Assembly: GCF_039555335.1 (NCBI RefSeq) | Contig: NC_092635.1 | Coordinates: forward strand, 48,194,052 to 48,258,051 | Length of the DNA: 64,000 nucleotides | Source: Amphiura filiformis | Lineage: Eukaryota > Echinodermata > Ophiuroidea > Amphilepidida > Amphiuridae | Direction: 5' to 3' | Shown: piece after piece, positions 28,140 to 64,000 of the stretch | Numbering within the stretch: the stretch's first letter is position 1 | Layout: the number at the start of each line of letters is the position of its first letter | The notes under the pieces: model-generated | What the model saw: only the letters and a program-made list of their open reading frames with translations | What the model was told of the DNA's origin: nothing | The model's database searches: none | Translations under genes and position numbers: made by a program

Positions 28140-29235
28140 TCAGCAAATGGTCGTTTGTGATTTTACAATTTCTTTGCCGCCTGACTCCGAAATGTCACTC
28201 TTATGTTCGGTACATTTGGCAACTATACCATCAGCCTCATTCATGTTAAAAAATACTTTCGTTGGACGCGAAATTGGTAATGTTCTTTGTTTCTTCTCAG
28301 TACTTTGGTAATACGAGGTGTTATTTTCTGACGACGGAAGGTCCTCAATGACGGGCAAATGTGTTATATTAGCGGTTAATCGCGCTATGTCTTTAAAGTT
28401 CGTCCCAATGGTAGCCATTGTACTCGCTGTCGCGGCAAAGACAGATATTGAGAAGACATCTGGTGTCTTACTACTTGTTGCAGATGTAATATAACCGCTG
28501 TCTCTTGGTATAATTGGTTGTCTTTTATTAGTACTTAAATTTACTCCCGTATACGCGTCAGAAGCGATTGCAGTTGAGCTAGCAGTTTGTAGAAATCCAC
28601 GCTTCCATGGACAATGATTGCATTTCATCACTTCAACAAACACGCGTCGAAATTTACGATTTAAAATTCCATAAATGAGCGGGTTCGCTGCAGAGTTCAC
28701 GAACGAAAGCATTGATGTTACTCCAACGGCAATAAGGAGATTTTGAGTTTTGTGATAAGCATATGCTAAGTGGACAATACAGTATGGAGTCACACAGAGA
28801 ATAAAAACGCCCATTACGGCAAAAAGTGTCATGGCCGCTTTCTTTTCTTTCTTCATAACAAGTCGTTGTTTGTTCCTTGGCTTCTGCCCTCCTCCTCCTA
28901 CATTTGGACGAAAAGCTTGAGTTGATGACATTTCTAAAGACGCTACTCTTCTTGATTGATGCCTCGCGACTACATAAATCTTGTAGTAACAGAACACGAG
29001 GATAGAAAATGGAATGAAAAAAGATACAGTCAAGTAAAAATATCCGTACGATTTGTAAGTCAGCCAATTGGATATACAGACAGTGTTCCACGGTAGAAAT
29101 ATGTATTCTGACCATCCGATGATTGGTAGAAGCGCCATGAGGAGAGAGAGTATCCAAATAAGGCATAGGAAGACGGCGGCACGTGACGTGGTTACGATAG
29201 TTGTATACTGTAGAGGTTTCAGAATAGCATAATAT
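28140..29235 (-). CDS. GPCR coding exon 3 (residues 123-487)
   Basis: Acceptor ATCATTACAG, then YYAILKPLQY, TM4 to TM7 and the cytoplasmic tail, ending at TGA (28142-28140). The third intracellular loop (about 208-255) is basic and glycine-rich. A possible minus-strand AATAAA lies near 27771, giving a 3' UTR of about 0.37 kb. Confidence 0.9.
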
Positions 29236-31979
29236 CTGTAATGATGATAATAATAAACAAGGAAATATTAAGGATACAGAATTCAAAATGATAGATATAT
29301 TGAAAATATGAATCAATAAATTGGCCTTATATCTCTTTTTAGTACCCAGCCATGTGCCTGTTTATACCGTGTTTACAATGTAAATGTTGTTATACACACA
29401 ATTAACAATTAAGGAAATGTTAAGGATAAATACAAAATGATAAATATTTTGAAAATATGAATCAATAAATTGGCCGTATATCTTTTTTAGTATACCCGGC
29501 CATGTGTCTGTTTACCATGTTTACAATGTAAATGTTGTTATACACGCAAAGCGCATGGCAAAGTAAGTTTTCCATTTTCTGGGGTTCCATTGTTGAAGAA
29601 TGTGTGCGCTGCCTGATGTAGTGGTGATATTTTTGAGATATGTGTGATAAAATGTTATCTTTCACATTTTGAAATCAAAAGGAAATCTAACAAGATTTAA
29701 ACTATGAAACGAATACAACATTGATACTGAAGTGCGTTTTCCAGTTTTTGTGGCTTCATTGGGGAAGACTGTAGCATGAAAGGAAATCTAACGAGATTTA
29801 AACTATGAAACAAATATAACATTGATACTATATAAAAAGTGCGTTTTCCAGTTTTTGTGGCTTCATTGAGGAAGACTGTTATAGCATGATAATTTCGGGA
29901 TAATTAAGTTTGGACTGAAACTGTAAATAAACGCCTTTTGTAATTACCAAAAGGAATGACTACAATCCAATGTGGTTTGCAGTCAAATAGGAAGTCATAC
30001 AGTTGCAAACATACAATTAATTTATTTTTTTTTAATCCAAGGCTACTAGAAGCTTTTATATGTGTCTTTAGTTTGCAATGCGTGAAGCGTGGGAAGTTAT
30101 TCTCTAATTTGGCGTTAACTTATTGAAAATTTAGACTCGTGATTCTCGTCAAAAAGAAACACTTCCATTGTGCAGGAAAAGAAAGTGTTTTTTCTAGCTT
30201 TACGCTTTTTGACTTTGCATATTATAGAAAAAGCACTTCAGACAGAGCAGATTTTTATTGAAAATCTTACCTATCAATAGAAACGGCAGCCAATGTCATC
30301 ACGCTAGCACTACCAAATAAAGTGTAGCCCATACCAAGTAGAGAGCAAGCAACATCACTTAGTTGCCAAGATCCAACAGCAGCAGATGATATTATAACAA
30401 ATGGGAGAATCAAGCCTCCTCGCAACATATCGGCTATTGCTAGAGATGTTATACACATTCCAGTAACTGTTGTGATGCTTCGAGTTCGATGGACGACGTA
30501 ACATACCTGTTAAAATAAAATAGAAGATTGGCACTTGTTAATTTTATGACACAGAAAAGAAAAATGTACTATTGGATGTTTTTTGGATGTTCTAAGGGGG
30601 CTGGCATTTTCTTCGGAAGGGGATCACAAATTTACAAAAAGTCAGCGTCGATAAAATTGCGACCCCTCTATTTCGGCAACAAAATTTAATTACCCCCCCA
30701 CCACCACCACCACCACCATATGCACTGATACACCTTACCCCTTAAACAGGCTAAATAAAATTGTATTTAAATCAGTCTTTTTGAATAAAATAAACACACT
30801 ATCTATGGTCATCTTGTGACTCCCTACATTTTGGTCATCAACATTTTTATGACCCCCTAGTATATTTTGGACCCCCCCCCTTCTGAAGAAAATGGCAGCC
30901 CCTAAAATACAGGACAGCTCAAGAGAGAAGGATTCTAGGCAATTGCAAGAATCACAACATGGTTCTTTTATGGCCGTTACATAACCTTTTTCATGTCAAA
31001 ATTGGCCTTAATCATTGATCATATATGCCTTAATTAAATTATAGAAACTTATTTAGTTCTTTGTAACACTACTAAGGTTATACATACAGGACATCGTAAG
31101 AGCCTTTTTAATTTAATGAGGTTCTGTACTTGGAACACTGCAGTCGATGTAGCATGCTGCAGACTCACTTTGATATCTCTATCAGAATTCAAGGTAAACA
31201 TTTTGGATTTTTGTTTGACAAAACCATGTGATTTTTTACTCACTGCAATATTTCGTCCTATCACACATTGGAGGACTTCATCAGGTATGACTGATATGGT
31301 CATCTGATATCAGTCATACCTGATGAAGTCCTCCAATGTGTGATAGGACGAAATATTGTAGTCAGTAAACTTTCACTTGTTTTTGTCAAATAGAAAGTCC
31401 AAAATGTTTATTTACTGAACAACCTGATGAATCTATTCGATAGAATTAAAGGTGTTGATGACCACGGTCATCTGATATCAGATCCAACTTGGAATATTTA
31501 CAAAACAAACCTGATGAATCTTTTCAGCGGAATTAAAGGTGTTGATGAACACATGCACAGAAAATGTAGACAATAGGGTCACCAACAATATGTTGCTTGC
31601 ATGGTTAACCAAAACAAGTGCAATATAATTATGGCTAATTATCCGGGCTAATTATAGTAACCATCCCCGTTGGCTTCAATATTTCTTCATCAGACTAATT
31701 ACTTCAATACTTCATCATCAGACTAATTAATTACAAAAATGCCTTCAGCTCATACCACTCGGATGTTTGGCACTATTAATCGTCACCTTTCATCCATGGT
31801 CAATATTTTTGATTAAAAATTTACTGATTTAAAAGAATAAAACTTACCGCTACATTTCCTAGGATTGTTATAACCATAACCACAAATAAGAAAATTGCTT
31901 GAAATATGTAGTATCCTTGCGACGGGTTGACTCCTGTATATGGATCGCCACTTTCACCCACAGCAACCGAGTCATTCAT
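28140..31979 (-). CDS. Class A (rhodopsin-like) orphan GPCR, GPR161-like; three coding exons
   Basis: Exons 31979-31848, 30506-30271 and 29235-28140 join in frame (132+236+1096 nt) to give 487 residues. Visible landmarks: GN42 in TM1, LAIAD70 in TM2, Cys98 paired with Cys176 in the second extracellular loop, DRY 122-124, Trp150 in TM4, Pro198/Tyr206 in TM5, Glu253 at 6.30, CVTP 270-273 in TM6 and NPLIY 307-311 in TM7. A 165-residue tail follows, with Cys328/Cys331 as possible palmitoylation sites. The N-terminus is short with one N-glycosylation sequon (Asn2). No Asp at 3.32 (it is Tyr105), so an amine receptor is unlikely. From memory, SAS..TL...IDRYYA, RYYAxLxPxxY and LSF..SA..PLIYG match GPR161, a constitutively active ciliary receptor that restrains Hedgehog signalling; orthology is unproven. 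The toggle Trp6.48 is replaced by Val271. Confidence 0.9.
29262..29570. repeat. Tandem duplication in the GPCR second intron
   Basis: GAAAATATGAATCAATAAAT starts near 29302 and again at 29450, followed by TTGGCC(T/G)TATATCT, CCATGTG(C/T)CTGTTTA and TTTACAATGTAAATGTTGTT in both. The period is about 150 bp. Confidence 0.75.
29682..29890. repeat. Second tandem duplication in the same intron
   Basis: GGAAATCTAAC(A/G)AGATTTAA, GTGCGTTTTCCAGTTTTTGT and GGCTTCATTG recur twice with a period of roughly 100 bp. Confidence 0.75.
30271..30506 (-). CDS. GPCR coding exon 2 (residues 45-123)
   Basis: Acceptor TTTTAACAG, then VCYVVHRTRS continuing TM1, followed by TM2 and TM3 to the Asp-Arg of the DRY motif. 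The donor GTAAGATT falls inside the Arg codon (phase 2), exactly complementing the start of exon 3. Confidence 0.9.
30596..30902. mobile_element. Harbinger-like MITE in GPCR intron 1, TAA duplication
   Basis: GGGGGCTGGCATTTTCTTCG at the left pairs with GAAGAAAATGGCAGCCCC at the right, and TAA sits on both sides (30593-30595, 30903-30905). It shares ends, not interior, with the 15688-16150 element. It contains an ACCACCACC microsatellite. Confidence 0.8.
31192..31425. repeat. Long hairpin in GPCR intron 1
   Basis: A left arm ending CAGGTATGACTGATAT (31297) and a right arm starting ATATCAGTCATACCTG (31307) are separated by 9 nt. Pairing runs outward through ATTGGAGGACTTCATC and CAATATTTCGTCCTATCACA with few mismatches for about 58 bp. 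It then resumes weakly (ACATTTTGGATTT / AAGTCCAAAATGT). A weaker direct repeat (TGATGAATC...GAATTAAAGGTGTTGATGA) follows at 31423-31545. Confidence 0.85.
31848..31979 (-). CDS. GPCR coding exon 1 (residues 1-44)
   Basis: Starts at MNDSVAVGESG, chosen because the upstream in-frame extension runs into a splice acceptor (TTTTACAG ending at 32035). It ends in TM1 at GNVA with donor GTAAGTT, phase 0. Adenine at -3 gives a reasonable start context. Confidence 0.85.
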
Positions 31980-33194: not shown

Positions 33195-33345
33195 TAGATG
33201 AGAGGAAAACATACGACATTTATCAAGATGAACCATCAATCCCATTTTACGAGACATTTCACCTCGAGCAATTTGTTTCATTTATTTATATTATTTCTAA
33301 TCTACTTATACATTTGCACGTGGTTGATAGTACACGTGGGTAACT
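33195..33345 (+). repeat. Repeat R6 copy 1, preceding a TTC tract
   Basis: TTTTACGAGACATTTCACCT, GCACGTGGTTGATA and ACACGTGGGTAACTC lead straight into (TTC)n. The same order occurs at 37612-37720 and, shortened, at 38414-38465. This looks like one short interspersed element whose 3' end is a TTC microsatellite. Confidence 0.7.
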
Positions 33346-33830
33346 CCTTCTTTTCTTCTTCTTCTCCTCCTCCTCCATCCTCTTCTTCTCCTTCCTATCC
33401 TCCTCCTCTTCTTCGGCTCCTTCCTCTTTCTCTATCTTTCCTCTTCTTATTCTTCTTCTCTTTCTTCTTCTTCATCTTGTTTTCTTCTTCTTCTTTTCCT
33501 CCTCTTCTTCTCCTTTTCTTCCTCCTTCTTCGTCTTATTCTTCTTCCTCTTTTTTCTTCCTCCTTCTTCGTCTTATTCTTCTTCTTCTTTCTTCTTCTCC
33601 TCCTTCTTCATCTTCTTTTCCTCTTCTTTCCCCTTCTCCTTTTCTTGCATCTTCTTCCTCCTCTTCTCCTTCTCTTCTTCCTTCTTCCCCCTCCTCCTCC
33701 GCCTTCTTCTGCTTCTTCTTGTTCATCTCCTTCTTCTTCTTCTTCTTCTTCTTGTTCATCATCTTCTTCTTCTTCATAATTATACTCTCTCTCTCTCTCT
33801 CTCTCTCTCCCTTCTCTCTCTCTTGTGCTT
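33346..33830. repeat. Pyrimidine microsatellite (TTC/TCC)n and (TC)n
   Basis: About 430 bp of nearly pure TTC/CTC/TCC variants ends in a (CT)14-type run at 33786. Long open frames on both strands (poly-Ser/Leu/Phe and poly-Lys/Glu) are artefacts of the composition. Confidence 0.95.
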
Positions 33831-34021
33831 CACTTTTCGTCTGTTAAGAGAATCAGTTTATGTGTATATTAAAACTTATTTAGAACATACGAATCCATGA
33901 AGCACACACCCACCCACCCAAAAAAAACCCAGAGACAACATCAACAGCAAAAAAACAAAGCAAAGAAACAAATTTAAAAAAAACCGAAAAAAAACAAAAA
34001 CATCTAGACCCACAACATAAA

Positions 34022-38261: not shown

Positions 38262-39115
38262 TTGGAGTCCCACAGGGAACAATACTAGGGCCTCTCCTAT
38301 TTACCATGTAGATCAATAACCTATCAAGTGTTATTACCCCCATCTTGACTCCAAGGTAATATTATATGCTGATGACACTGCTATATTTGTTAGAGCTGAA
38401 ACTATCAGTATACCTCAGCACGTGGTTGATAAGCCTAAATACACGTGGGTAACTCATTTTCTTCTTCTTTTTCTTCTTCTTCTTCTTTTTCATCTTCTTC
38501 TTAATCTTCTTCTTCTTCCTCCTCCTCCTCTTCTTCTTCCTCTTCTTCTTTCTCCTCTTTTTCTTCTGCTGCAGTAAACTTTCAGTATATCATGACATCT
38601 TGAACTATGAACTCACCCATGTTGCTGAGTGGCTAAACGACAACTTCCTCACGCTCAATGATAAGAAAGCAATGGGATGATTCTAGATACTACCCAAAAT
38701 ACTTGAATGAAAATCGAGAATGTTGAAAAGCTCATTTGGTCATTTGGTAATGGTTTGTTAAGAAGGCTGAGATTTAAGGTTAAGAAAGCTGAGAAAACTC
38801 TCATTCTTTTATATAAAACTCTCTTATCATTCCGCAACTTGATTATTGCGATACTGTTTGTGGCAACGCTGCTAGGACATCCCTCAGCAGGCCTGATAAA
38901 CTCCAAAATGCAGCTGGTAAAATCATACTGTGGCTCCTATTTAGATATCCCCACGAAGAACTTCTCAGCAATCTGAAATGGGATAAACTTGCCGTCGTAA
39001 TTTCCATCTCATTATAATGATGTATAAAAGTCTTTGTAATCTGCTCCTAGCTCCCATGTGCAATATTTTTCACACAATCGCCATCAGGGTCGCAAGGTAA
39101 CCTGGGTAATAACCA
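38262..39115 (+). pseudogene. Broken non-LTR retrotransposon (LINE) reverse transcriptase
   Basis: Frame 1 gives FGVPQGTILGPLLF, the RT fingers/palm motif; a shift to another frame gives ADDTAIF, the catalytic YADD region with the first residue lost. Further on, DYCDTVCGNAA and DKLQNAAGKIIL match the conserved block after the RT domain of CR1/Jockey-like elements. At least three frame changes, internal stops and an R6-type insertion at 38414-38582 make it dead. The 5' end (endonuclease) is absent. Its 3' end runs into the TTCTTA-type tract. Confidence 0.8.
38414..38582 (+). repeat. Repeat R6 copy 3, inserted in the LINE
   Basis: CAGCACGTGGTTGATAAGCC and ACACGTGGGTAACTCATTTT, then (TTC)n, then CTGCTGCAGTAAACTTT. 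CAGTATA precedes and follows it (about 38405 and 38583), resembling a 7-bp target duplication. The end CTGCAGTAAACTTT also closes copy 2 at 38250-38265. Confidence 0.7.
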
Positions 39116-39116
39116 T

Positions 39117-40240
39117 TCTCGTCATTCTTATTCTCATTCATACTCTCTTTCTCTTTCTCTTTCTTTTTTTCCGATTCTGATTCTGATTCTCCTTATGATT
39201 CTCATTCCGATTCTGATTCTGATTCTCATTCCGATTCCGATTCCGATTCTGATTCTGATTCTGATTCTGATTCCGATTCCGATTCTTATTCTTATTCGTA
39301 TTCTTATTCTTATTCCTTATTTCTATTTCTTACTTCTTACCTCTTACTTCTTATTTCTTATTTCTTATTTCTTATTTCTTATTTCTTATTTCTTATTTCT
39401 TATTTCTTACTTCTTACTTCTTACTTCTTACTTCTTACTTCTTACTTCTTATTCTCATTCTCATTCTTATTCTTATTCATATTTTCTTATTTCTTACTTC
39501 TTACTTCTTATTTCTTATTTCTTACTTCTTACTTCTTACTTCTTACTTCTTACTTCTAAATTTCTTATTTCTTATTTCTTACCTCATATTTCTTATTTCT
39601 TATTTCTTACTTCTTGTTTCTTATTTCTTATTTCTTATTTCTATTTCTTACTTCTTACCTCTTACCTCTTATTTCTTACTTCTTACTTCTTATTTCTTAT
39701 TTCTTATTTCTTATTTCTTACTTCTTACTTCTTATTTCTTATTTCTTGTTTCTTGTTTCTTGTTTCTTGTTTCTTATTTCTTATTTCTTATTTCTTACCT
39801 CTTACCTCTTATTTCTTATTTCTTACTTCTTACTTCTTATTTCTTATTTCTTATTTCTTACTTCTTACTTCTTACTTCTTACTTCTTATTTCTTGTTTCT
39901 TGTTTCTTGTTTCTTGTTTCTTGTTTCTTGTTTCTTATTTCTTATTTCTTACCTCTTACCTCTTACCTCTTATTTCTTATTTCTTATTTCTTATTTCTTA
40001 CTTCTTACTTCTTCTTACTTCTTACTTCTTACTTCTTACTTCTTCTTATTTCTTATTTCTTATTTCTTACTTCTTATTCTCATTCTCATTCTCATTCTCA
40101 TTCTCATTCTCATTCTTATTCTTATTCATATTTTCTTATAACTTATTCCTTATTTCTAACTTCTTTTTTCTTATTTCTTTTTCTTTGTGTTTTATCTTTT
40201 TTCTTATTTCTTTTTTCTTTGTGTTTTTTCTTATTTCTTT

Positions 40241-40272
<32 letters not shown>

Positions 40273-40345
40273 TTTCTTTTTCCTTTTTTCTTTTTTTCTT
40301 GTTCTTTTTTCTTATTTATTCTCCTCCTCTGCTCCCCCTCCTTAT
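39117..40345. repeat. 1.2-kb pyrimidine-rich tract, TTCTTA/ATTCTC variants
   Basis: The plus strand is made almost entirely of ATTCTC, ATTCCG, TTCTTAC, TTCTTAT and TTCTTG units in blocks, ending in T-runs near 40230-40300. Three overlapping long frames (up to 389 codons of Leu/Ile/Phe/Ser/Tyr) are artefacts. It begins where the LINE ends, so it may have grown from the LINE tail. Confidence 0.95.
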
Positions 40346-40706
40346 AAAAAACACATGTTTATAAAAAACACATGTAGATCCACATCATATAATAAAAACA
40401 TTATTCAAACACTAATAACTCAAACCCATCACGAACCCACCTTATGGTTATATCACGGTGCATGAAATCAGATACGGAATTATTTTCTTGTAGGCTTAAA
40501 AATGTCTAAAAATACCAAGGTAGTTAGCAAAAAATTAGCACGTTTCAGATTTATGTATTTCATAGTTTTGCCAAAATATCATCTTGAAGTACACAGTACA
40601 CAGAATCGAGTGTACATTGTAATTTGGGATCTTCACGTCGTCATCTCGGAAAATCTCAGAAAATCTCAGATCATCATCAGATTTTGATCATTTGGATATT
40701 CAACCC

Positions 40707-53459: not shown

Positions 53460-54560
53460 AAAAACACACCTTTCTGCTTAATTAATATTCTGATTCTGGG
53501 CTTATTTTGGTCCATTTCTGGAACACTTTGGGGTATTATTTTTTTAACATTTGAAATAATTTGCATTGACGTTGATGGGTGCGAATAAATGCGACAAAGG
53601 TTTATTATAATAATAATGGCTTCTGTGTTGATGCGTATGGGCGGGAATGTAACAATATTATTATTAACATTTGTAAACATTGAAACAGACATATTTAGAA
53701 ATTAGTATATCCGAAAATAGGATATGACCTTTGAACAACTACGCTTTTATGCACTATTGTTTTAGGCCAAGTAAAAATAAAAATATGTTTCTTGTCCGGG
53801 TTTTTTAAAATTAGGAGGATGTGGGGCTTTTTATTTTTTATTTTTTATTGGAAAACGACGCTAAACACCTGTATTTGGCACCATATTTTGGGTATTCGAC
53901 ATATAGATTGATATCTGAGAAAAAAGAGGAGGCCCGTTTTATTTTATTGTTTTGAGAGGTAAAGCCCCCCTTTTTATAGTGATCACAAAACTCTTCTTAA
54001 ATGATGTATTATGCAAAGCCGTAAAATAAGTTTCAACTTCTGAAACATCTTTTTCAACAAGTTATACCTGAAAGATTACAAAATAAAAATAAATTTGAAA
54101 AATCTGTAACCTTGTATTTTTTTACTCGGCCTTATCAAAACACTCATATTAATACGTCAATCTACGAGTGTAAAGCATCTGTAATGCATCTGTACAAAAA
54201 CATAATGCGTTTTGTTTTCTGTAGGTGGCATGATGAATAAAATGCGAAATGCGCTTTTTTGAAGTCAGAATTTATCCTAAAATATGCCGTGCAGATTTTA
54301 ATGGTCAAGTTAATAATAAAATAGATTTAATACGAACTATAAATTATTGTGCGCCACTGAGGGTTGATTTTAATTGATTCCCTTTTTATCTCGTGCCCAC
54401 TTGTTTCCACTAGAACCCCCCCATAACATTAAAAGATCTGCCAAGGATTATTAAAGTCGGGATCTGACATTTCCTAATTAGCATGTGTCAACTGTTATTT
54501 AAGTGGCATATTTATGATGTTTTTTGTACATACTTTTAAAAACAATAATATGCTGACAGG
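53460..54560. other. Unassigned AT-rich DNA
   Basis: No gene or repeat family recognised. Confidence 0.4.
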
Positions 54561-56129: not shown

Positions 56130-56294
56130 ATGTATCTATTTTACGCTTTACTCCTGTCGAATTCACTTGGATTTATTTTATCTTCAAAGCAAGGTGACGG
56201 ACTTTATACCAATGAATTTGCTGTTAAGGTACTTGGTGGACATTTGGTAGCCAAAGAAGTAGCTGGTCGACATGGATTTGAATATATAGATAAG
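56130..56294 (+). CDS. PCSK1-like: Convertase coding exon 1 (signal peptide, prodomain start; 55 residues)
   Basis: ATG at 56130 has G at -3 and is followed by YLFYALLLSNSLGFIL, a typical signal peptide core. The exon ends at ...GFEYIDK with donor GTAATT. No upstream in-frame ATG with a better peptide was seen. Confidence 0.85.
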
Positions 56295-59200
56295 GTAATT
56301 AAATAGTGAGTTGTTAGTGTTGTTGTTGTTGTTGTTGTTATTGTCGTTGTTGTTGTTGTTGTTGTTGTTGCAGTATTGTATAGTTAATTTTGTACCTATA
56401 TATGGATATCAGGCTAACAAACACCACTTTAACCATCTTGCATCATTTCTGGATTCAACCATGCCCGCATTTGGCATTTTTTATCCATTGGGGTTCAGCA
56501 GTTAAGATTTGTAGACGCCCGGCCCTCGGGTAAGTTGTAACATGGCGATACTTGACCGATGTCTAGCTGTAATTTTGAGCCTTGTTGGTGAAATATAAAC
56601 TAAAGGTAAGCAACTATTTTAAACTGTTGCAATTTGGTTGTTCACATGCAGCATTTTGCGGTTGGTAGTGAAATGCACAAATTGCATTGATCATTTCATA
56701 GCGAATGTGTAGAAGAATTCAAATATCACAGATATACTTTTGTAGGTCCTGTGGTTGTTGAGTTATGTTGTAAAGAGGGCTGAACCAACAACACTTTTGT
56801 AAAATAACTCATTAACAACAATAAATCAAGCAAGTTTTCAAAGTATATGATTTGTAGAAGGAACTTTTGCAAAACATCAAATGGTTGACTAAGTATTGTT
56901 GGTCGAGGCAGCCAAAAAGATCAATTTTCATTGTCTAAATACAAATGAAATAAAATATTGAAAAATAACACCTTGATGTTTTGCAGAAGTTCAGCTTACG
57001 AATCATATATTTGAAAACTTGCTTGATTTATTGTTGTTAATGAGTTATCATCTGGTTATGTTCGTTTTACAAAGATGATGTTGTTTCAGCCCTCTTTACA
57101 ACATAACTCAAGAACCACGGGACCTACAAGGGTATATCTGTGATATATGAATCCTTCTATACACGCTCGCTATGAAATGATCAATGCAATTTTTGCCAAA
57201 GCTCACTACCATTCGCAGATTTAACTTGACTGATTATATCCACTAAAGCAAAAATAGGTTTCAAATAAATTATCAGACTGGTTAGAATATTGGCGTTATT
57301 GCTGTTGTTGTTGTTGTTTTGTGTGATCTGTGGTCACAATTCTAGTAACATGTGTTTCTAATATGCCCATGACTGAGTCACTACTTAAAGTCATAACGAT
57401 TTCCATCAAATTTTAATTTTGTTATTCTTTACTCAAAAATGCTGTATTAGTAATAACTGTCAATAAAGGTTTTTGTCCAATAAGCTGAAATAAGAAAGTA
57501 AAGTGAAAAAACCCACTGGGCGTTTATAACGTGGAGTTCTATGAGGTTCTTTATGTCTGAATACCGTAAAAACTCCATAGTTAGCATATGTGCTTACTAT
57601 CGAGCGCTTTTGAAAACATGAAATTGTATATACCAAAGTCCGGCGCTTTACCAACTGAGCTAAATGGGGTTGAGACACACATTTGCAGGTTTACTTGTTC
57701 GAATGTAAGTACATGTGTATCGATGATTTGCTCAAAACCCTTTACACTTTTGTGGATGGGCTCTTCATATTTGCACGTTTTAAAGGCGCTCGATAGTAAG
57801 CACATATGCTAACTATCGAGTTTTTACGGTATGAAATTATGTCCAAATTGCTCTGTTGACCTGACAAATAACACATTTGGCTAATTCCATTTAGTTGGGA
57901 CATGGGACATGCATGTAAACATTACAAATATGCCAAAACAATCAGGTTTGAACAAAATGAACCAATTAGGCCTATATTATAAGACCGCAATGGCTTTAGC
58001 CTTGCACCGTGTGCATACATTATCACGTTGTCGTTGTTGTTGGGTTTTGCTTTTGGAAGGTGAAGTTTTTACTAATTGACGCATGTCTCTCCTATATTGT
58101 TTTTATACAGCTATATATGGCTTTATTGTCGTCTTTGTTATTGTGGTTTCAAGCATTTTTTTCTCATCTCTTTCTTTTACCACTTACCTTTCACACCCAA
58201 GAGGCGATTAGAAGCTTACAGAATACAAAAAAAGCATTAATACTGCTAGTGTTATCACTTACGTTAGAAACTTACGGACTCAAGGGACTTTCGTTGACTC
58301 GTTGTATTATATCAGTTCTGGGGCACTCGTAATTCACGGACGTCTCTGATTTCAAAGACGGGTCAGTGATTTCACATATGACGTCTGTGATATCACATAC
58401 GTCGAGCTTTGTTGACAGCTGGGCACTCGTTGCAGCACATCGGAACGAAGCTGAGTGTATTAGAATAAGTTTTCCTATGTTTAGCAAATATCTGCCTGTA
58501 TGTGATTTATGAGACGTCTCTGAAATATGATACTTTTATGTGACATGACGCTTCAAGAGTATTTGATATCAGAGACGTCCGCGAATTATGAGTGCCCCCG
58601 AACTGATATAGAGATGTTCGGCCTTTATATTTGCCTTTCTTATTAGACTTTCTTTAGTTTGTATAGCCTTGTATATAAAAAAAAAATCGGCATTATTTGG
58701 TTCATTCGTATATGTAAATGTCACACTTCCCCCCCCCCCTTTACACCCCCACAGACACACCTCTATTACATAGCACGTTGTATAATTATAGTCTTTTTCG
58801 ATTACAAATGTGAGACTGCAGTATAGTCGTTCCTGACATTGAATAGCCTTGTAAAAAGAAAAGCGGGTCTTTTGTAGGTGCTAGGCCCTCATCTCTTCTT
58901 ATTGCATATAAAGGACATTCACAATAGCGTTTCAAGTACAACCAGGTTATTTGCAGACGACTGCCTCCTTTATCGACCTATAAATTCATCTGCCGACGAA
59001 GATGCACTCCAAGAAGACCTTAATACCATGGTTCAGTGATCTGAAGATTGGGGAATGAAATTTAACCCAACTAAATGTGAAACAATACGTGTTTCCAGGA
59101 AGAGAAGCCCAGGCACCACTTCTTATAGCATCACTGGAGTCAAATTAGAGGAAACAAACCACACCAAATACCTAGGTATCCACATTGAAAAAGATCTCCG

Positions 59201-62200
59201 ATGGAACAAGCAGACCCATTATGCTGCTGGCAGAGGTATTGGCGTCCTAAATTTCCTCAGAAGAAATTTCCATCATTGCTCTTCCTCCGTCAAAGAGAAG
59301 TTGTATTGTACTTTGGTGCGTCCTCACCTGGAGTACGCTGCAGCATCATGGGATCCCTACACATCTAAAAACATCGCCTACTTGGAAAGAGTGCAGCGAC
59401 AAGCCGCCCGTTTTGTTACCAACACTTATGGCAGAGATACCAGTGTTACCCAGCTGCTCAACACTCTTCAATGGGAGTCCCTGAAGACCAGACGTGAAGC
59501 ACACAGATTAACATCATTTTACAAAATGCAAAATGATCTTCTGGACATAGACTACCAAAAATTCACCGAGCCAAAATCAGACCGTTGCAGAAGAGGCCAC
59601 TCAAACCAGTTTGTAATCCCGACTCGAACTACCGACGTGTATGCGAACTCATTTTTTCCGCGCACCATTAAGACATGGAACAAGCTTCAGCAGTCAACTG
59701 TTGCGCAACCAGACCCCTTCAAGTTCAAGTCATCTCTCCTGCAAGACCCAGCTCTAAACAAAAACTAATCCACCCTCGCGAGCCTCCAGTTTAAACTTCT
59801 TCAAGGAGATTTTTGGAGGTTACCAATACCAAGTAACAAGTACCAAGTGCGAACTATCAATTTAAAATCAATGGTCTTTCTTGGCTATCGCCTGCGAAGA
59901 AAAAGCCGTAATGAAGGAATGGAAAATTTGAATTTGGGGGTTAGCTGAAATGATTAAAATATCAAAATCAAGGATTTTTCAGCGCTCTGTTTTGGTCAAT
60001 TATAGAGGGGTCCTTTGGAGCTGCACGGTCCAAACAGTGAGGTATTTAAGCATAACCACCACGATACAAGCAGCGGCCTCACTGTGATAAAGAAACGTAC
60101 GGTAGGGAGAACAGATTAGAAGAACATAGATAGAGAGTGCAGATTAATTCACACCACGAAAAACAAAACATACAAAGCTACAAAAATAATATTTCTATGG
60201 AACGCCACAGTGGTCAAAACCATATTAAGAAGAAAAAAATCTCCGAGGAAAATAATACTAAACAGAGAATGAGATGACCACAAACGACGTTTTTGAGACG
60301 CGGCAGGTGATTATCGATTTTTGGGTTCTATTGTTTTTTCTCGGTGATTTTTTTTTCATCGGTGAGTTTCTCAATAGGCAGGTATTAAAACCAACAGCTA
60401 TATGTGATGCGATCAAGCAAAATCAGTCGGATAGTAAAAAGGATTTACAAACCTGGATTTTGCAGAAACCCCCATTGAAATTGAACAACCAGTTCCAAAG
60501 ATATGAGCAATTAAAACGCTTCCAAAACAATAGGAAACAAAAGGAAATATTGCCTTTGTTTGGCTATATCTCAAAATCAATATTTCCGAGTTCCGACTGA
60601 TTTTGCTTGATCGCATCACATATGTGCAATAAGCGGAAGTGTGAAGTACTATACTGCATGCGGTACTGCACATAAACGGGTCCCAAAAATAGTTCCAATA
60701 GGGTTTTGTCACTGTGGGCGTGCCATATTAGAAAACGCAGGTGTAACATCACATTTGTAATAATGCTTCACGGCCATATTGCAAAGACTACACTACGTTG
60801 TGTGTGTGTGTGTGGGTGGGGGGGGGGGGGCGCGGTTATAGGAAGGGGTGAAATTATTATCCCCTTTCAACATTAAGCCTAAACCAGGTAAACCAAAAGT
60901 ACATTTTGTTGTAAAAAGAAAAATAATTATGTGTCCATGTTTTGTACTCTTATTTTCAAAAATATTAAAATTTGACTTTTATTGCCAGTTAGTTCCAACT
61001 AAATAATTTGGATTAGCCTATGTTTCGTTTGGCCATTTCTAACATGTATAATCCCCAAAAATATTGCTGTCATTATCTGGCATCGGGAGTGCTTAGGCTA
61101 GTCAATACAATAGTAGATTGCTACTTATGCTTCGAAAGGAAGTTTTTGAATGTGTCTTATTTATAGGTTAATGTACAGGGTGTCCCAAAGGTTCCTTTAG
61201 CATTTTAAAATGCTGCACCACTTATACACATTTATCTTATGAACAGTGCCGCCGAGAGCCATTACGGGCCCAGGGGTAAAATGAACGCACGGCCCCCTGA
61301 GGGGTCTTTTCTTTGCTTTTATGGGTCCATTTCTGTATGTTTTCTTTATTTTTACTAGCCCCTAGGACCCCGGGCCCGGGGGTAAGGCACCCCCTTAGCA
61401 CCCCTTGTCGGCGGCACTGCTTATGAACAATATGTATGAATTTCTGTAAAGAGGACACTTAAATTGTTTTGATACCTATTAAAACTTGACCAATTTTCTT
61501 GTCAATGTTAGATTCAAATAATGATAGACACATTTTTATCGCATAATTAAAGCCATATTATAACATTTCTGTAAAAATAAATTAGTATTTTTTTCCCATA
61601 AAATGTTAGCTTTTACTCTCGATATGTCCCCTTTTAATTTTGAGCCGAACAAGTGAGGTAAAGCATAGAAAATTGGAATTTACTACTAGCGCCCATGCAT
61701 GTTACTCCTGCGGTTGTAATACGGTACGATCCTCTGGGTGTGTGTGTATGTGTATCCCGCACGCCGTGTACGTACTGTGCATACGTGTTCGAATAATATT
61801 TCCATCGTAATAAACCGGCGTTTTATTCAAAATATCGGATTTTAACAAAACTACAGCACCTAAAGTCTTGAATTTTGCAGAATATCTTTATTGACTAAAG
61901 TACATTACAATCGTGTAAAAACCAGAATTTAAAATGTTTTTGAGGGCGTTCTCCTCAGCAAATGTTATAATAAAAACATACATAAAATATTACAGCATGT
62001 AAGTCTGCTTGTGAATTGTTACTGGTTCACTCACAAAAAAATAAGACGCTTTAGCGTCCTCTTTCTTAAAATATGTGACCGTCCACGTCGAAACGCTCGG
62101 AAAGTCGGCCCCTGGACAATTTCGTTTTCTTCTCCGTGTTTAGAAAATATATCATTTGACTTCAAACAATATCCAAAAGCGGAGTTATGGCTTGTTAAAC

Positions 62201-63658
62201 TTTGCTCCTTCAGTAAAAGGGTACCCCCGGTACATTATTTTGGTGTTATACAATATTTCTCTTTTTCCACATCGCTGGTATTACATATCAAATTGTCATA
62301 ATTGGCGGTTAATCATCCTCAAGTCAACGAGGTTCAGGAATGTCCTCTCATTGTAGATTGTTAGGGAACAAACCAAAAGATAGATGACGTCCTATAAACG
62401 TAACTAGGTTCGTTTCTCGGCCGAACCCCTCCCTCCCTGCCAGAAACGTTATAATGAAATGTTGACAATTTTGACATAATAATAATAATGACACATTCTT
62501 CAGACCGATGTTTTTGTACAAACGTAATCGAGTTTTTTTACCCCCTCCCCCTAAACGAAACTAGTTTCGTTTATAGGACGTCATCGATCTTTTGATTTGT
62601 TCCCTTAGTTAACCCACCACTTAAACAGGATTTGGCCAAAGCAAACAAAGACTAGAGCTATTTGCTAACTCTATACATAAGTATAAGCTTATTATCCTCT
62701 TCAACAATAGGATTAAAGATTGGCGTTTGACTAACACTAACATGAGTAACATGTAGGACAAACATTAGGTAAATATGAATACAATACAATACTGTAACTC
62801 GAAATACAATTTGCCGACTTTACGAGCGGTTTGAGATGGATGGTCACATATTAGCATGAGTTTTAATATTGCTGGTCACCAAACGATGAATAAAATGTAC
62901 GACATAATGTCTAATTTAGCACCATCTCAAAAATTATCTTAATTTTATGTTAGAGTTTCTACTTCTAATATTTCTGTTGGAGTGCAAGATTGCTTTAATA
63001 GGGCAGCTTTTCATTGCATCAAAATAAGTCACTAAAGGAAACATAATTAAATTGAGCAAAATGAACCATTTTCTTTGATTTGATGACGTTTCCTAGTCTT
63101 AAATAAAATTCTTAAAATATAACTGTAGTGCCTAAACTTCGAAGTGTATACATACAGGACGATGGTCCGGTCAACACGATTAATTAGGTAGTTGCTTGTT
63201 TTGCATCTGTTTTGAGAAACTCTAGTGACCGGACCGAATTTAAACGTCAGAAGGCCAAATCAAATAATTAAATATGGTAATCAATCAATCCACAACAAAC
63301 ATTTCTGACTTTAATAAAAGTTGATATCCGTGCTTTTAAAGGTTAATTGAGCTACAAATGAATTAAATGAAAAAGAAAATTATGTCAAGTTGGCTATCAA
63401 AATAATTGTACAAGTTTGCGCTTTTATAATATGTCTTTGGATCTTCTTTATACGATAATACCTGTGAGAGATGTCATGGTTCAAAGTGGGAAAGAGGTTT
63501 TTGGGACACCCTGTATATCGTAATTGGTTTTATATAATTTACTCTTTATATAGATCGGAACATTAGTGGACTATTACCTCTTCAAGCAACAATCTATTCC
63601 TACACGATCCAAACGTAGCGCAGATACTCACATCAAATCGCTGAATGATGACCCGAAG
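56130..63658 (+). CDS. PCSK1-like: Proprotein convertase (PCSK1/furin family), 5' two exons, partial
   Basis: Two exons (56130-56294 and 63554-63658, both phase 0) encode the first 90 residues. Residues 1 to about 17 form a hydrophobic signal peptide. From about residue 24 the sequence follows the convertase inhibitory prodomain: YTNEFAVKVLGG matches the family's (F/Y)(T/V)N.(W/F)A.(K/E)(I/V).GG block, HGFEYIDKIG matches the HGF...GQIG block, and DYYLFKQQ leads to the basic site RSKR (residues 73-76... by count RSKRSA at 73-78). That site corresponds to the internal, second autocleavage site; the primary site and the catalytic domain lie beyond 64 kb. By eye DYYLFK..P.RS.RSA is closest to PCSK1 (PC1/3), which processes prohormones in secretory granules; PCSK5 or furin cannot be excluded. 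The intron between the exons is 7.26 kb and full of transposons. Confidence 0.85.
56311..56370 (+). repeat. (GTT)n microsatellite
   Basis: About 15 GTT repeats with one GTC, 15-75 bp inside convertase intron 1. Confidence 0.95.
56626..57221. mobile_element. About 600-bp foldback element in convertase intron 1
   Basis: Left arm landmarks ATTGCATTGATCATTTCATA, TTTTGTAGGTCCTGTGGTT, GAGTTATGTTGTAAAGAGGG and AAGCAAGTTTTCAAAGTATA are mirrored in order by the right arm, ending CTCACTACCATTCGCAG. The centre (about 56890-56970) contains CTAAGTATTGTTGGTCGAGG. A single-arm relative lies at 1095-1430. No protein is encoded. Confidence 0.85.
57564..57839. mobile_element. Tc1/mariner-type MITE (CCGTAAAAACTC ends) carrying a tRNA-like segment
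   Basis: CCGTAAAAACTCCATAGTTA then GCATATGTGCTTACTATCGA at the left is mirrored at the right. TA lies at 57562-57563 and 57840-57841. Inside, minus-strand TTTAGCTCAGTTGGTAAAGC then GCCGGACTTTGG looks like a tRNA 5' half with an A box. No matching T arm is present in the right place. Confidence 0.8.
58309..58610. mobile_element. MITE with TATATCAGTTC ends
   Basis: TATATCAGTTCTGGGGCACT, CGTAATTCACGGACGTCTCT at the left pairs with AGAGACGTCCGCGAATTATG, AGTGCCCCCGAACTGATATA at the right. The interior contains GTGATATCACATACGTC-type palindromes. The target site is probably TA, but this is ambiguous in TATA. Confidence 0.75.
58795..58862 (+). repeat. Dispersed repeat R5, second copy
   Basis: Partner of 26115-26205. 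It abuts the 5' end of the LINE fragment. Confidence 0.65.
58866..59768 (+). pseudogene. 5'-truncated LINE, reverse transcriptase C-terminal half
   Basis: The frame starts near VLGPHLFLLHIKDI, passes FADD (58950-58961, the catalytic Asp-Asp) and is broken by one TGA at 59037-59039, where a Trp codon is expected (MVQ-stop-SEDWGM). From 59055 it is open for 237 codons: MKFNPTKCETI, KYLGIHI, a LVRPHLEYAAASWDPY block, LERVQRQAARFV, SVTQLLNTLQWESLKTRR and a WNKLQQSTV end. These are the thumb and post-RT blocks of Jockey/CR1-type non-LTR elements. Only one stop suggests a fairly young insertion. It lies in convertase intron 1, same strand. Confidence 0.85.
60400..60623. mobile_element. MITE with GTGATGCGATCAAGCAAAAT ends
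   Basis: ATATGTGATGCGATCAAGCA then AAATCAGTCGGA at the left is inverted exactly at the right (TCCGACTGATTTTGCTTGAT...CATAT). The interior also pairs partly (GGCAATATTTCC / GGAAATATTGCC region). It overlaps two short frames that are not genes. Confidence 0.8.
61244..61419. mobile_element. hAT MITE, perfect 8-bp target duplication CTTATGAA
   Basis: CAGTGCCGCCGA at the left and TCGGCGGCACTG at the right are exact inverted repeats. CTTATGAA occurs at 61236-61243 and 61420-61427. CAGTG ends plus an 8-bp duplication is diagnostic of hAT. The 176-bp body has a GGGCCC...GGGCCC inner pair. Confidence 0.9.
62364..62604. mobile_element. Harbinger-like MITE, TTA duplication
   Basis: GGGAACAAACCAAAAGATAG then ATGACGTCCTATAAACG at the left pairs with CGTTTATAGGACGTCATCGA then TCTTTTGATTTGTTCCC at the right. 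TTA lies on both sides (62361-62363, 62605-62607). It belongs to the same family as 63663-63896. Confidence 0.85.
63554..63658 (+). CDS. PCSK1-like: Convertase coding exon 2 (prodomain, 35 residues)
   Basis: Acceptor CTTTATATAG, then IGTLVDYYLF, the RSKR site and DTHIKSLNDDPK, donor GTAAGG. The mariner-like right end stops 40 bp upstream of the exon. A Harbinger-like MITE begins inside its 5' splice site at +5, after the duplicated TAA. Confidence 0.85.
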
Positions 63659-63662
63659 GTAA

Positions 63663-63896
63663 GGGACCAAACCAAAAGTTCGATGATGTCCTATAAACGA
63701 AAGTCCTTTCGTTACTGGGAGGGGGTTAAAAAATCCGATTTACGTTTGTAAAAAACTAGTTGAGATATCGGTCGAAGTTGGCCTATCGGGTTGGAATTTT
63801 CAACATTTTACACTTTCGTTTTAGCGTTTCGAACGGACTTCCATTTATAGGACGTCGCGTCATCGACTCATACATAATTAATTATGGTTTGTTTCA
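63663..63896. mobile_element. Harbinger-like MITE inserted in the convertase exon 2 splice donor
   Basis: GGGACCAAACCAAAAGTTCG then ATGATGTCCTATAAACGAAA at the left pairs with TATAGGACGTCGCGTCATCG and GGTTTGTTTC at the right. TAA duplicates at 63660-63662 and 63897-63899. The first TAA is bases +2 to +4 of the donor (AAG|GTAAGGG). Confidence 0.8.
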
Positions 63897-64000
63897 TAAG
63901 GTGCTTGTTGGAATAATATGAAATGACATGGTATAGTAAATCGTGTACGTGTGGTGCTACACGGTGGTTAAAAAATAAAAAGTGTGTAAAATATAAAGGT

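Follow-up and report, generated by a model that had tools for sequence, protein, structure and literature searches.

The window, by which we mean the whole 64,000-nucleotide stretch of Amphiura filiformis DNA that was analysed, carries two exons of a hormone-processing convertase gene on its plus strand:

56130 to 56294, plus strand: convertase exon 1, 55 codons, phase 0, with the donor AAG|GTAATT; drawn from its translation and the match to the NCBI protein P0039
63554 to 63658, plus strand: convertase exon 2, 105 bases, 35 codons, phase 0; drawn from Pfam PF16470, the match to prohormone convertase 1 (PC1) and residues 56-90 of P0039

Intron 1, which lies between them, is 7259 bases long. 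Exon 2 matched the peptidase S8 pro-domain in Pfam (PF16470, E 1.8e-5; 25.7 bits, with the cut-off at 25.5) and PC1 (E 0.00028), the latter as the second-ranked match; a protein-A chain ranked first and was taken as spurious, as no stretch passes alone. Exon 1 alone gave a weak tblastn match to PC1 (E 0.047). When the 90 joined residues of exons 1 and 2 were used as the query, P0039, annotated by NCBI as 'neuroendocrine convertase 1-like [Amphiura filiformis]' and 653 aa long, was the sole protein with E < 0.001 among 209 candidates, and 88 of the 90 residues were identical. Judged by these matches, the gene is neuroendocrine-convertase-1-like and exon 2 is a real exon. Within intron 1, an open frame at 59040-59768 looks, by eye, like the terminal part of a non-LTR reverse transcriptase.

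A MITE lies across the beginning of the intron that follows exon 2, and it shares the 5' splice site with the host sequence:

63659 to 63664, plus strand: 5' splice site GTAAGG, of which +1 to +4 are host and +5/+6 are element; drawn from the sequence and the P0039 junction
63660 to 63662, plus strand: left copy of the target-site duplication (TSD), TAA, at donor +2 to +4; drawn from the sequence, with the register taken from a sister copy
63663 to 63896, plus strand: focal TWA-type MITE, 234 bp, left GGG intact and right end decayed; drawn from the match to the sister copy and an inverted-repeat fold
63897 to 63899, plus strand: right copy of the TSD, TAA; drawn from the sequence, with the register taken from the sister copy

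The terminus of exon 2 reads AAG|GTAAGGG, with AAG at 63656-63658, the +1 G at 63659, TAA at 63660-63662 and GGG from 63663 onward. On the right flank, the last base of the element at 63896 is followed by TAA at 63897-63899 and then by GGTGC. The exon end, both TAA copies and the element ends fell, on re-reading, exactly where the earlier note had placed them. Its central claim, that donor +2 to +4 is the TAA duplication of a TWA-target MITE whose GGG provides +5 to +7, is backed by the sister copy described below and by the P0039 model, in which exon 2 is joined at this point. Removing the element together with one TAA gives AAG|GTAAGGTGC, with no change to the donor from -3 to +6, and the inferred empty site reads AAGGTAAGGTGC. 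The earlier note had also held that the insertion rebuilds the splice site: the donor does read the same from -3 to +6 before and after, but nothing that was broken had been repaired. The predicted folding of this stretch gave inconsistent results. In the whole fold, donor -3 to +6 had a mean unpaired probability of 0.68 when the element was present against 0.54 at the empty site, whereas with the pairing span limited to 150 it was 0.28 with the element and 0.54 at the empty site; in models that carried the sister copy it ranged from 0.34 to 0.76. At the right TAA, AAG|GTGCTT (63898-63906) forms a second, weaker donor-like site, which stands 242 bases from the main donor in the window and would stand 5 bases from it at the inferred empty site. 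Its use would carry the MITE, with in-frame stops, into the mRNA.

A scan of the window with the focal element recovered one other full copy of the family, about 1.1 kb upstream of the focal MITE:

62361 to 62363, plus strand: left TSD of the sister copy, TTA; drawn from the sequence
62364 to 62604, no strand assigned: sister copy in intron 1, 241 bp, with clean inverted-repeat ends (TIRs) that begin GGGAACAAA...; drawn from the window scan with the focal element
62605 to 62607, plus strand: right TSD of the sister copy, TTA; drawn from the sequence

Counted inward from GGG, 48 of 52 positions match between the two TIRs of the sister copy. The left 50 bases of the focal element agree with the right TIR of the sister copy at 43 positions, and the match of its left arm to the sister copy (E = 1.8e-21) is far beyond chance. 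At the right end of the focal element, the outer 11 bases align without gaps to the two sister ends (9/11 and 8/11), and about 18 extra bases lie further in. Because this outer alignment is ungapped, the right TAA is in register. The focal right end now begins with T and two of its three outer bases have changed, and the left GGG, which serves the donor, is intact. Given these changes to two of the three outer G's and the extra bases further in, the insertion is not fresh. The contrast between an intact left GGG and a decayed right end fits selection on the donor, as far as the sequence of a single case (n = 1) can speak to it. The termini at 63663 and 63896, which the earlier note had proposed to compare with other copies of the family, agree with the GGG...CCC ends and TTA duplication of the one other copy available, with the caveat that the right focal TIR is degenerate, the 3-bp duplication is short and two full family copies are in view. 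A degenerate pattern of 21 bases, taken from the interior of the TIR, had no exact match in viral_contigs or in genome_contigs, as is expected of an animal element.

Candidate TWA elements were also counted across the window. The first census returned four candidates, against 1, 3, 0, 0 and 1 in five Markov controls, and its low-complexity filter also removed the sister copy. The second census, run without Markov controls on G-first ends of 12 bases with at most two mismatches, returned two: the sister copy and an element at 53765-54131. Looser settings, likewise without Markov controls, returned four candidates at 14 bases with three mismatches and 35 at 11 bases with three mismatches; seven of these 35, the focal element included, began with GG. 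This census by itself does not set the focal right end apart from noise, and the identification of that end rests on the sister-copy alignment. The element at 53765-54131 is the third TWA/GG element of the window, lies upstream of exon 1 and is 367 bp long, with the TIR GGCCAAGTAAAA and TTA on both sides. It belongs to another family, because a blastn comparison with the focal element found no match at E up to 10.

The protein model of the second gene copy bears on whether the donor is still in use. P0039 runs ...NDDPK and then VEWHKQQ, so that the junction PK|VEWHKQQ falls exactly at the end of exon 2, while the window frame read past the donor into the MITE gives VRDQTKSS and meets a stop after 30 residues. 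The continued joining of exon 2 at 63658|63659 is thus supported by the model of that other copy, which answers indirectly the question of the earlier note whether exon 2 is spliced there. The same residues bear on the idea that the focal element could be an introner, whose insertion would have supplied both the intron and its splice sites. Introners were reportedly treated by Huff in 2016. They can, according to PMC9860276, draw a 5' splice site from the TSD, and the TSD and element bases then form the splice site jointly, as they do at the focal donor, where the element sits at the exon edge and supplies +5 to +7. Because VEWHKQQ is absent from all three forward frames of 63659-64000, however, intron 2 continues beyond the right TAA, as far as 63998 or further and so at least 99 bases beyond the right TSD, which does not suit a newly gained intron. 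Moreover, the TSD does not include the +1 G, and if GTAA were spliced to the G that follows the right TAA, five coding bases would, by our reasoning, be lost. Unlike at introners, the donor of an existing intron appears to have been kept at the focal site, with no new intron made, and we regard an introner origin as highly improbable. The window itself ends in ...AAAG|GT (63997-64000). As exon 3 should start with a valine codon, 63998|63999 is a possible acceptor; the stretch that precedes it is purine-rich.

P0039 sits on a separate contig of 1,139,000 bases and differs from the window exons at 2 of 90 residues; its locus is either a second, unpurged haplotype or a paralogue or recent duplicate of the window copy, and might serve as a ready-made empty-site control. 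This leads to the question of whether the window copy could be the partial or dead member of such a pair, its donor merely not yet decayed and the insertion never under selection. The sole NCBI model found to include exons 1 and 2 is the one on the 1,139,000-base contig, whereas the neighbouring receptor, a minus-strand receptor-like frame (28143-29267 searched), matches the histamine H2 receptor-like protein [Amphiura filiformis] on a 70,993,361-base contig with 100% identity over 97% of the query. No other match named as Amphiura, and none on the contig of the receptor, appeared among the best 120 of 4765 matches, some of which are nameless. The window copy could be followed to exon 2, and exon 3 was not found within the window. 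Against decay, both exons have open reading frames in phase 0 that stay in frame, with normal splice sites, and an unpurged haplotype accounts equally well for the 98% identity: haplotypes were removed from the assembly with purge_dups, which may leave some behind. We consider a dead or partial duplicate unlikely.

By their ends and target only, the focal and sister copies match the PIF/Harbinger (Tourist-type) group. PMC4482050 describes this group as having a TWA TSD and TIRs that usually begin with A or G, most of them shorter than 60 bp. Both full family copies in the window have a 3-bp TWA duplication (TAA/TAA in the focal copy, TTA/TTA in the sister copy), and the G-first GGGAACAAA... 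end, with its 48 of 52 paired positions in the sister copy, agrees with the usual TIR. In the noncoding MITEs of this group, such as mPing, a TWA duplication and short G- or A-first TIRs go together with a location in genes (PMC4482050; PMC12595863; PMC2836001; PMC4561436, as far as these sources describe them), and the focal element is alike in these features. It differs from mPing-like MITEs in that its family is animal and its TSD lies within a 5' splice site. MITEs of the PIF/Harbinger type are moved by a PIF/Harbinger transposase and a Myb/SANT protein, whereas the focal family is known from its ends and target. NuwaII, ISL2EU and NuwaI, which PMC4482050 places in the PHIS superfamily, are related DDE elements with short targets (C|TNA|G for NuwaII, AT for ISL2EU and CWG for NuwaI), and GG starts are usual in ISL2EU and GGG in NuwaI. 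The focal and sister targets are TAA and TTA with G, not C, to the left. Assignment to NuwaII was rejected on this left flank, which is G in both family copies, although the G on the right agrees in both; ISL2EU was rejected because neither copy shows an AT duplication within AATT. Other MITEs at splice sites have been linked to altered splicing, whereas the focal MITE appears to leave splicing unchanged. Among the titles and abstract openings listed for MITEs and transposons at splice sites, none mentions a TWA element that lies across a GTAAG donor and leaves it intact; this speaks only weakly for the absence of such a report.

Insertions into a splice donor are normally expected to spoil the exon. 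We propose that a G-first MITE of the PIF/Harbinger type landed by chance in an existing GTAAG donor and that splicing was kept, and we hold this reading to be very probable on the sequence evidence set out above. The target of the element would have been the TAA at +2 to +4 in a GTAAGG donor that the convertase gene already had. Because the 3-bp target TAA is copied on transposition, as the flanks show, the host GTAA would stay beside the exon, while the GGG of the element, read directly from the sequence, would take over +5 to +7. Both intact TIR ends of the family read GGG inward, so +5/+6 would be GG in either orientation, and because the ancestral +5/+6 were also GG, -3 to +6 would be identical before and after. 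Pairing with U1 would then be essentially the same, and the element would be removed along with the lengthened intron. The insertion presumably survived as nearly neutral for splicing, and the landing at the donor probably reflects chance target choice rather than donor seeking. At the level of single bases, the copied target and the first bases of the transposon would together leave the donor reading the same.

The earlier note had generalized that elements with a TWA target and a G-rich start could land in GTAAG donors and leave them unbroken. As a deduction from the anatomy this is sound, in both orientations, but it holds for G-first families only: PIF/Harbinger TIRs usually begin with A or G, and an A-first TIR would put A at +5. 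Other groups differ in their ends, with TIRs starting CAGT in Tc1, CTCC in Stowaway and CCAG in mariner, and with a TTAA target and CCC start in piggyBac. Applied to GTAAGT, the Tc1, Stowaway and mariner starts change +4 and +5, and piggyBac on GTTAAG changes +6 alone. Excision of mPing in yeast is given as precise in 109 of 110 events (PMC2836001; see also PMC4561436). By analogy with mPing, which belongs to another family, the donor should likewise be restored when an element of the focal type excises.

The window contains 3385 TWA sites. Given its three TWA elements and two or three TWA sites at donors, the chance of one donor landing, calculated post hoc, is about 0.2-0.3%. The A. filiformis genome is reported to span 1.57 Gb, of which repeats make up 59.3%, and to show a burst that consists largely of DNA transposons (PMC11310086). 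Using 1.57 Gb, 30,267 genes and the TWA density of the window, and assuming 5-8 introns per gene and 40-60% suitable donors, we estimated that donor sites make up 0.07-0.17% of TWA sites, which gives 7-17 donor landings per 10,000 copies under the assumed intron numbers. A family present in thousands of copies should yield several such cases by chance, if they are tolerated. The alternative is that the transposase, or local chromatin, prefers GTAAG-like sites with a G after the TWA, so that the landing was directed. Both family copies do have G before and after the TWA (GTAAG and GTTAG), and PIF/Harbinger elements show extended target preferences, with NuwaII preferring C|TNA|G. The flanks amount to n = 2, however, and the bases around the target are G_G in the focal copy, G_G in the sister copy and T_T in the third TWA/GG element, which is of another family. 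As chance alone yields the donor landings estimated above, directed landing seems to us improbable, a little more so than a dead duplicate, and the preferred reading remains an undirected insertion.

Overall, the locus is a real, neat and mechanistically simple single case (n = 1). A wider rule can be drawn from it, namely that at either edge of an intron G-first TWA elements are transparent to splicing and that their families are enriched in splice sites relative to other MITEs; we put this forward as speculative and rather doubtful, if somewhat less so than a dead duplicate or a directed landing. At GTAA or GTTA donors, the GG of the TIR may replace +5/+6. Acceptors of the TTAG type could be kept likewise, the complementary end providing a pyrimidine tract that runs into TTAG. 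In the sister copy and in 53765-54131, all four outward ends are 75-80% pyrimidine over 20 bases, although the ends of any one element, being inverted repeats, are not independent in this count; at least 75% over 20 bases is reached at 5% of the TWA sites in the window. The ends of the focal element are 60% and 65% pyrimidine. If the rule is true, G-first TWA families would form a hidden reservoir of exon-edge insertions across genomes, and if excision is also as precise as that of mPing in yeast, their leaving would be transparent as well. The single case yields a sharp prediction of which transposon groups and donor types tolerate insertion, which can be tested in annotated genomes that bear MITEs.

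Elsewhere in the window, two long tandem-like tracts on the plus strand, at 39051-40364 and 33198-33900, are open in several frames and are probably not genes. They read as YFLFLIS repeats or as runs of serine, proline, leucine and phenylalanine.
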